Part shown: positions 7,352 through 29,620 of the stretch, one piece after another
Layout of the letters: every line of letters starts with the position of its first letter
Numbering within the stretch: the first letter of the stretch is position 1
NCBI GenBank assembly: GCA_003214175.1
Contig: QCLZ01000009.1
Location: 1-42,510 of the forward strand
Reading direction: 5' to 3'
DNA length: 42,510 bases
Source of the DNA: Prochlorococcus sp. AG-418-I20
Lineage (GTDB): Bacteria; Cyanobacteriota; Cyanobacteriia; PCC-6307; Cyanobiaceae
The notes under the pieces: generated by a model
Databases searched by the model: none
Seen by the model: the letters and a program-made list of their open reading frames with translations, nothing else
What the model was told of the DNA's origin: nothing
Position numbers and translations under genes: made by a program

Positions 7352-7991
7352 TATTACTTCTTATCAAGAAACCAGCATAAGAGACTGAATGAGGTAAAAT
7401 TTTGTGCTCAAGGATATGTATTCTTTTGGAAAGTGATTCAATATCATCATCATCTCTTATTGCCAATGCAGCTTGCATTATTAAAGAACCACTATCTACC
7501 TCTTCATCTACAAAATGTACTGAACAACCAGTTATTTTTGAACCATTAAGTAAAGAGTCCTTTATCGCAAAACCACCCTTGTATGCTGGAAGTAGGGATG
7601 GGTGAATATTAATAATTTTATTTTTAAATTTATTAATGAAGAAGGGTGAGACAATTTTCATCCAGCCAGCCATTACAATAAGTTCAACATTATTGTTAAT
7701 TAAAGTATTTACAATTTCTAATTCAAATAGCTCATTTTGCGAAAAATCTTTAACTCTTATTATTTTGTGAGGTATTTTTGCACTTTCAGCTCTTTTTATA
7801 CAACCTGCATCATCTTTGTCAGTTACAAGAACTTTTATATCTACATCTAAGTCTCCTTTTTCTGAGAGATTAATTAACTCCTGAAAATTTGTGCCTTTCC
7901 CAGAAGCAAGTACACCTATTTTTAATTTTGGTGAAAATCTCCTAAATTCTGATATATCAGGAGAAATTATGTAATTAAATGATTTATCCAA
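7335..7991 (-). CDS. purN: phosphoribosylglycinamide formyltransferase
   Basis: Transfers a formyl group from 10-formyl-tetrahydrofolate to GAR, the third step of purine synthesis. It has 218 residues, a little longer than the approximately 210 of E. coli PurN because of about 23 extra N-terminal residues. The phosphate loop is VLASGKGTNFQ, the catalytic Asn-His pair lies in INIHPSLLPAYKG, and the catalytic Asp is in HFVDEEVDSG. It is convergent with argC and overlaps it by 17 bases. The ATG at 7991 has no obvious competitor nearer the conserved domain. Confidence 0.95.
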   Translation of the reverse strand: MDKSFNYIISPDISEFRRFSPKLKIGVLASGKGTNFQELINLSEKGDLDVDIKVLVTDKDDAGCIKRAESAKIPHKIIRVKDFSQNELFELEIVNTLINNNVELIVMAGWMKIVSPFFINKFKNKIINIHPSLLPAYKGGFAIKDSLLNGSKITGCSVHFVDEEVDSGSLIMQAALAIRDDDDIESLSKRIHILEHKILPHSVSYAGFLIRSNIMENY

Positions 7992-8164
7992 AGTTTTTTA
8001 TTCAATGATAAATTCTTAAGTAATAAAAAACACCCCTATTCAGATTGTTTATATTCAAAAACATATTTATTTGAAGATATAAATTTAAACAAATTTAAAT
8101 GATTCAAATCTATGTACTATTTGTATAGATATAATTAAATAATTAAAAGGAACACATATATAAA

Positions 8165-8257
8165 ATGAATGGAGATTTAAACTCTTGGGAAAAATTTTGT
8201 AATTATCTTTGGTTTGATAAAAAAATTAAATATTTGGTTAGACATAAGCAAAATTAA
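8165..8257 (+). other. pgi: displaced N-terminal segment of pgi, frame closed by TAA at 8255
   Basis: The ATG at 8165 follows a good ribosome-binding site (AAAAGGAA, 8145-8152). It reads [20 protein letters not shown] up to the A7 run, which resembles the W-x-x-Y/F-C-x-x-L-W/Y-x-x-P/K start of cyanobacterial glucose-6-phosphate isomerases. After the run the frame goes to [10 protein letters not shown] and stops. In the other frame the text continues [10 protein letters not shown], the expected Pgi sequence. One A too many relative to a continuous gene explains this exactly. Confidence 0.8.
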
Positions 8258-9749
8258 TTTCACAAGTAAAGAGATAAAAAATTTAGAAGAGAAATTTATA
8301 GATGTTTTTTCTTCAATAAAAGAGCTAGAAAATGGTGCAATCTCAAATGTAGATGAAAATAGACAAGTTGGACATTATTGGCTTAGAAATCCTTCAATTT
8401 CACCTTCTTCTAAAATCAGAGAGGAGATTAGTGCAGATATTAATGAAATTTCAGAATTTGGAAAACAAATTTTAAATGGGAATATTAAGAATAAGAATAA
8501 TCAGAACTATACAGATGTCCTATGGATAGGAATTGGTGGAAGTGGTTTAGGCCCATTACTTATTACTGAGTCACTGCAGAAATGCTCAAAAGGACTAAAT
8601 TTTTCTTATATAGATAATGTTGATCCTTTTTTAATTAGCGAAAAGTTAGAAGAGTTACGTGAACAATTATCCACAACATTATTTGTAATTGTAAGCAAAT
8701 CAGGTGGTACACCTGAACCTAGAATTGCTATGGAAATTATTAAAAGTCATTGCGAAAATAATTCTCTTGAATGGAATTCTAATGCTATAGCTATAACTAT
8801 GAAAGATAGTAAGTTATTTAAAAAAGCCACTTCCGAAAATTGGTTAAAAATATTTAATTTGCAAGATTGGGTTGGAGGAAGAACTAGTATTACAAGCTCT
8901 GTGGGATTACTTCCATTAGCCCTAATTAATGAAAATATATTTGAATTTATTAGAGGTGCAGAAGTAATGGATGAGGCCACACGTACTAGTGATTTTAAAA
9001 ATAACCCCGCAGCATTATTATCATCTGCATGGTATTTAACAGGTGATGGCGTTGGAAAGAGAGATATGGTCGTTTTACCTTATAGAGATAGGTTACAGGT
9101 ATTTAGTAAGTATCTTCAGCAATTAGTAATGGAATCATTAGGTAAGAAATTTAATAGGAATGGTGAAGTAGTTAATCAAGGAATTTCTGTTTTTGGTAAT
9201 AAAGGATCAACAGATCAACATGCTTATGTTCAGCAACTGAGAGATGGTATTGATAATTTCTTTTGTATTTTTATTGAATTATTAGATTCTCCATCTACTA
9301 ATATTTTTGAAGAGAAAGAGAATCCTAAAGAATATCTTTCTGGTTTTTTGCAAGGGACTAGATCAGCACTCTCAAGTGAAAATAGACAAAGTATCACTAT
9401 CACATTAGAAAAATTAAATTGTTTTTCGCTAGGTGCCTTAATCGCTTTATTTGAGAGAGCTGTATCCTTCTACGCTGAATTGGTAAATATAAATGCATAC
9501 GATCAACCTGGAGTTGAAGCTGGAAAGAAAGCAGCCGCAAATATTATTGAGTATCAACAAAAAGTAAGTAATTTATTAGAAGATGGAGGAGAATATTCTA
9601 TACATGACATAACATCATTATTTGATAATTCAGTGAGTGAACCTATATTTTTCATATTGCGTGAAATGTGTTTCGGTAATGATAATTATTTAGTTAAGGG
9701 CGATTGGTCAAATCCAAATTCATTAGTCATTCAAAAAACAAATACTTAA
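8214..9749 (+). CDS. pgi: glucose-6-phosphate isomerase, main reading frame (N-terminus displaced by frameshift)
   Basis: Interconverts glucose-6-phosphate and fructose-6-phosphate. The frame carries the usual motifs: [37 protein letters not shown] and [14 protein letters not shown]. The first start-like codon in this frame is a TTG at 8214, giving 511 residues, but it overlaps a run of seven A (8219-8225) and no SD precedes it. The true start appears to be the ATG at 8165 in another frame, preceded by AAAAGGAA at 8145-8152. That short frame encodes the usual cyanobacterial N-terminus and joins this one if one A is skipped, which would give 527 residues. The stop overlaps the end of leuS by 4 bases. 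It may be a real frameshift, an assembly error or rescue by slippage. Confidence 0.93.
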
Positions 9750-29136: not shown

Positions 29137-29236
29137 AATGAAAAAAACCTTATTAGAATTATTACCTTCTTAACCCCCATACTCGTCAACCTTTTTTTAA
29201 GAAATGTTTGTGTTTTATTATTATTAAAAAAAATCT

Positions 29237-29620
29237 ATGACCATAATTAATCAAGTTCAATTAAATGTTTTAGGAAAAGAAATTGAGGTTTGTAGTTGTG
29301 CACCTATGACAGGCTGGTTCAGAGATGGATTTTGCAATTATGACAAAAATGATGGAGGGAATCATTCTATATGTTGTGTAATGGATGATAATTTCCTGAA
29401 ATATAGTAAATCACAAGGTAATGATTTAATAACTCCTATGCCAAATTATTCCTTTCCAGGATTAAAGGACGGTGATCATTGGTGTATTTGTCTTGATAGG
29501 TGGAAGCAAGCATTATTAGACGGTCTTGCGCCAAAAGTCATATTAGAATCAACAAATATTGTAGTATTAGATTCAGTACCTCTAGAAAAATTGAAAGAAT
29601 ATCAATTTAATAAAAAGTAA
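29237..29620 (+). CDS. DUF2237 family protein
   Basis: A 127-residue protein of the DUF2237 type. Its cysteine/aromatic pattern is MTGWFRDGFCNY, HSICCVMDDNFLKYSKSQGNDL, then FPGLKDGDHWCICLDRWKQALLDGLAPKVILEST, which is the whole conserved core of that family. There is no signal peptide, so it should be cytoplasmic. The function is not known; the six or so cysteines invite the idea of metal binding, but no standard motif is met. Confidence 0.8.
   Translation: MTIINQVQLNVLGKEIEVCSCAPMTGWFRDGFCNYDKNDGGNHSICCVMDDNFLKYSKSQGNDLITPMPNYSFPGLKDGDHWCICLDRWKQALLDGLAPKVILESTNIVVLDSVPLEKLKEYQFNKK

Follow-up and report, generated by a model that had tools for sequence, protein, structure and literature searches.

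A frame-breaking seventh A in the pgi gene of one Prochlorococcus draft genome is probably a private insertion without function

The closest described parallels to a reading frame broken at a run of A are genes of the insect endosymbionts Buchnera and Blochmannia, where slippage at long A runs is reported to restore 12-50% of transcripts (PMC5009743), the runs in the Buchnera mur genes being of about ten (PMC6260861). With E. coli RNA polymerase, reporters are described as giving no detectable slippage on runs of fewer than seven T or fewer than eight A, and for the poly(A) runs examined the same report describes no detectable deletion, insertion at one run of seven A amounting to 0.39% of sequenced transcripts (PMC6260861). 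Work cited there had out-of-frame lacZ with 7-11 A slipping in both directions, with an efficiency of insertion at least double that of deletion. In transcripts of E. coli and Buchnera, a survey placed insertions mainly in A and T runs and saw no transcription error that restored a frame (PMC5574713). Under laboratory selection, bypass of frameshifts is reported in repeats of 3-8 bases, and A runs are given as known sites of replication slippage (PMC3812077). These slippage measurements come from bacteria other than Prochlorococcus; a literature search on transcriptional slippage in Prochlorococcus gave no such case in the portions of sources that it returned, which name Prochlorococcus in a reference, in a table on another gene or not at all, and no slippage test on Prochlorococcus RNA polymerase was found in the literature searched.

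The locus compared here with these systems is pgi, encoding glucose-6-phosphate isomerase, in a 42,510-nucleotide stretch of Prochlorococcus sp. AG-418-I20 (the window), part of a 95.6%-complete draft genome (1.498 Mb, 24 contigs), two contigs of which (C23 and C24; 5,252 bases) are all N. The native ATG opens a frame of 30 codons that closes at a TAA (8255-8257), the remaining Pgi is in a different frame that stays open up to a TAA ending at 9749, and the switch falls inside a run of exactly seven A (Table 1). This arrangement, put forward in an earlier note made from the letters of the window, was confirmed by frame reading. The note also credited the ATG with a good Shine-Dalgarno sequence: a Shine-Dalgarno-like AAAAGGAA is indeed present, but its 12-nt spacing is long and the wording a little generous. 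In the downstream frame the TTG at 8214 is the only ATG, GTG or TTG after the upstream stop (8178) and before 8730, and no Shine-Dalgarno-like sequence precedes it, in keeping with its description as the sole, and poor, alternative start. A scan of 7950-8300 for sigma-70-like promoters gave no site, against 3.6 expected in shuffles.

Table 1. Features around the 5′ end of pgi, in coordinates of the window.
Feature	Position	Strand	Basis
AT-rich intergenic stretch preceding pgi, 16.8% G+C	7992-8164		composition count
Shine-Dalgarno-like AAAAGGAA, 12 nt 5′ of the ATG	8145-8152	+	sequence reading
30-codon frame from the native pgi ATG; genuine N-terminus in codons 1-20, last 10 out of frame	8165-8257	+	ORF reading, relatives
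TTG, sole alternative start in the downstream frame before 8730, without Shine-Dalgarno-like sequence	8214-8216	+	sequence
A7 run with the extra base; six bases in the relatives read	8219-8225	+	relatives' loci, genus pattern search
Remainder of pgi (glucose-6-phosphate isomerase), open frame	8226-9749	+	PF00342, frame reading

The downstream frame matches PF00342 over window positions 8226-9746 with 219.5 bits, against a curated cut-off of 22. The segment upstream of the run is also genuine Pgi, since in the relatives read a single frame runs through it into the remainder, and residues S7, W8 and K10 to K20 are invariant in 19 aligned Prochlorococcus Pgi sequences, all close relatives that are 95-98% identical to the first sequence. 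From residue 5 onwards an intact relative's Pgi matches NCBIfam NF010696 (829.5 bits, cut-off 671) and aligns with the solved chain 7e76; a predicted structure model of intact Pgi has a mean pLDDT of 42.3, too low to be of use. The window copy is like the intact Prochlorococcus genes that belong to NF010696 (for example L066) in the gene itself, its N-terminus and the leuS neighbor downstream, and differs from them by one extra A, so that in the AG-418-I20 assembly the N-terminal part is broken off at the run, where in relatives it is in one frame with the rest. The proposal that this is a displaced, true N-terminus is borne out by the relatives, and the check that went with it, whether relatives lack the upstream segment, comes out in the negative, the segment being present in all uncut relatives' loci read, which rules out a naturally shorter N-terminus in them. 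No second pgi copy was found by a family search of this 95.6%-complete genome, the two matches being pieces of the same gene.

In a pattern search that tolerated up to three mismatches, the frame-breaking A7 form was present in one of 266 genus genomes, AG-418-I20 itself, which rules out a conserved frameshift or programmed recoding. The frame-keeping six-base form was present in 167, AG-418-I20 not among them, and the other 98 had neither pattern, pgi being missing, cut or more divergent. Among 109 relatives' loci (L003-L111), the stretch compared, which comprises the bases between an aspartate codon and the next hydrophobic codon, has six bases in 107 (106 by pattern and L025, with a substitution in the anchor, by eye) and seven in none, the other two being cut at a contig end there. 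The sets L003-L031 and L032-L111 partly overlap, so these are counts of loci and only those out of 266 are counts of genomes; the 80 relatives in L032-L111 are labelled Prochlorococcus, with a few Synechococcaceae. The count of A in related genomes that the earlier note had called for thus comes out for the six-base form, and its claim that six A would join the two parts of Pgi is matched by the single intact frame of the relatives with six bases there. Run length alone is harmless, since G144 and G095 both have seven consecutive A at this site, produced by a frame-preserving substitution. The frame-breaking seventh A is private to the AG-418-I20 assembly. The gene was found in 60 of the 66 genus genomes with at least 90% completeness and at most 5% contamination. 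Two genomes given as 96-97% complete (G054 and G055) gave no pgi match, probably through assembly gaps, though true absence is possible.

The median dN/dS of the downstream frame against 78 relatives is 0.093, and that of the relatives' own pairs is 0.107 with quartiles of 0.088 and 0.128; 13 of the 78 have a lower mean value than AG-418-I20 (the set is L032-L111 without L065, with clean 1,500-base stretches, and relatives' pairs were used where dS exceeded 0.02). These values point to normal constraint, with no relaxed selection and no decay, so that the lesion would be fresh, false or compensated; such constraint is equally expected under an error or a fresh mutation. Runs of seven A are commonplace in this genome and the unusual point is that one of them breaks a frame at pgi. 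The long ORFs (at least 450 nt, crudely trimmed of their first 60 nt; 718,944 nt from 945,346 bp, with the pgi run itself outside the census) contain 580 runs of exactly seven A and 302 longer ones, 882 in all, and 233 runs of at least seven T. With so many A runs inside long ORFs, the genome would pay a high price if A7 runs slipped efficiently.

Lesions of the same general kind occur in sister drafts. Among tblastn matches with more than 55% identity, pgi is broken in two of 112 sister loci (58,581 residues covered), both elsewhere than at the A run, one by an in-frame TAA (L065, about 1960) and the other by two frameshifts (L216, about 2620 and 1785). The essential downstream neighbor leuS is broken or frameshifted in four of 111 loci (L024, L050, L216 and L217; 80,061 residues covered), apparently from three genomes, L024 and L050 being on contigs alike in length and layout that look like one contig. 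The essential gene is hit about as often as pgi. As its lesions can hardly all be real, drafts of this genus include false or very fresh lesions, at a background level sufficient to yield one case in pgi. The private lesions of L065, L216, L217 and L024/L050 resemble that in the window in being single lesions, each in its own place, in constrained genes, pgi and leuS both; they differ in that L216 carries several in a space of 4.5 kb and that the window comes from an assembly that looks cleaner. With its absence from relatives, and with similar lesions in the indispensable leuS of sisters, the seventh A has the marks of a private lesion.

The 5′ part of pgi is also a place where contigs end. 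Nine matches start within pgi at base 1-3 of their contig (in G019, G049, G124, G174, G056, G166, G047, G037 and G081), three of them beginning at query residue 28, and the contig of L029/L047 ends right at the A run. Perhaps low read coverage of this AT-rich stretch, the counterpart of window 8219-8310, lies behind these breaks. For Prochlorococcus single-cell contigs, alignment gaps are reported at 0.70 per kb with 454 data only and 0.44 per kb for the hybrid assembly (PMC2731171).

For the lesion rate within this assembly, 945,346 bases were compared with the 1.64 Mb of the single-contig relative G108, retaining best matches with at least 60% identity. Split matches were found for 16 of 896 matched ORFs. 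In nine the difference sits 5′ of the likely start codon, one is a start-site difference in pdhA, two are in short doubtful ORFs, and four are inside plausible coding parts, those of pgi, an ArsM-like methyltransferase gene, a small cupin-like ORF (-4) and a small membrane-protein-like ORF, at its end (the last two named by eye). In the reverse direction, with the ORFs of G108, eight split matches were listed for 880 ORFs, two of the eight concerning a single ORF; of the six inspected, which do not include that in C9 (1-421), two are inside coding parts. The AG-418-I20 assembly is thus about as clean as that of G108, and with four in-coding splits here and two in G108 an assembly-wide homopolymer fault is unsupported. 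The ArsM-like gene, whose protein scores below the curated cut-offs of NCBIfam, is split by a +1 insertion outside any homopolymer (L227, about 8820; G000:C1, about 148820, minus strand). It has a match in 77 of 101 genomes, as two pieces with stops in AG-418-I20 and G064, as pieces at contig ends in G074 and G046, and as a partial match in G087. Where relatives match it over its full length, the gene is almost always in a single frame, and its lesion looks private or nearly so.

From all this the seventh A is probably an artefact of amplification, sequencing or assembly. It would be a private one-base insertion without function that arose in one of these steps within a very AT-rich stretch, the same in which other drafts of the genus break, and pgi in the cell itself would have been ordinary and intact. 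We infer an error instead of an in-cell mutation, and several points stand against this. The assembly is not rich in faults, as the comparison with G108 shows; the ArsM-like lesion, outside a homopolymer, is less typical of read error; and the leuS lesions are mostly from poorer assemblies, that of L217, near the C-terminus, being one that could be tolerated. A real and very recent +1 mutation, from six A to seven by replication slippage, with Pgi abolished or strongly lowered and no rescue, is possible, if on balance doubtful. Such slippage is what A runs are prone to, the ArsM-like insertion suggests that there are real private lesions in this genome, and with no further pgi-like gene found in the genome the result would simply be a damaged cell, but with pgi so general among good genomes and under normal constraint, natural knock-outs should be rare. 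Of the options in the earlier note, strain mutation and assembly error both remain, with the frame-breaking A7 private, and it is slippage rescue that is left unsupported.

That the A7 is real in the cell and enough Pgi is nevertheless made, by slippage on a run shorter than those known to permit rescue or from the TTG, seems very unlikely. Restoration of such an allele by RNA polymerase slippage from seven A to six or nine, or by +1 or -2 ribosomal frameshifting, can draw on the bypass seen in short repeats under laboratory selection, on the restored transcripts of the endosymbionts, on the two-way slippage of lacZ with as few as seven A and on the normal constraint on the downstream frame. 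The likeness to the Buchnera and Blochmannia genes (PMC5009743) extends to the AT-rich small genome, the break at an A run and the constrained gene; the differences, on what is reported of those genes, are that the run here is of seven and not long and that the broken frame is in one genome, with no conservation across relatives. A run of about eight A or more is the reported requirement for E. coli polymerase, and ten or more are present in most known cases (PMC6260861, PMC3812077). As the frame is shifted by +1, rescue in mRNA requires that one A be lost or two gained, and the direction required is the less favored one in the reported experiments, with no detectable deletion on poly(A), sparse insertion at A7 and no frame-restoring error reported for Buchnera (PMC6260861, PMC5574713). 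Together with the cost of efficient slippage in a genome so rich in A runs, this makes restoration by slippage or frameshifting highly improbable. Least probable of all is a shortened working Pgi initiated at the TTG, which is in frame with nothing missing downstream. Besides the poor context of that codon, such a protein would be without residues 1-16 and changed at residues 17-18, so losing S7, W8 and K10-W16, part of the stretch invariant to K20, from a protein that both the NCBIfam family and the solved chain match from residue 5. If either form of rescue were true, a central enzyme of sugar metabolism in a free-living AT-rich bacterium would depend on a frameshifted gene for a low, leaky supply, and a real A7 with rescue would bear on the slippage tolerable to bacteria with thousands of A runs. 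Most likely the extra A is not a special reading of the gene and has little biological weight; the caution to be drawn is that, for a frameshift in a central gene of a marine draft genome, recoding should be proposed only after comparison with an essential control gene in the same set of assemblies. The gradings given to these readings are judgements and not computed.

Some differences from G108 concern starts. The N-terminal difference in pdhA was considered as a lesion and rejected, its 348-codon open frame being common to 13 others of the 40 genus genomes searched. In the pdhA start region (L245, about 6333; G000:C2, about 166333) the frame differs between G108-like genomes and the others, and is shorter here. 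In the window, at about 29228-29237, a 2-base difference from G108 lies directly 5′ of the ATG at 29237, outside the coding sequence.
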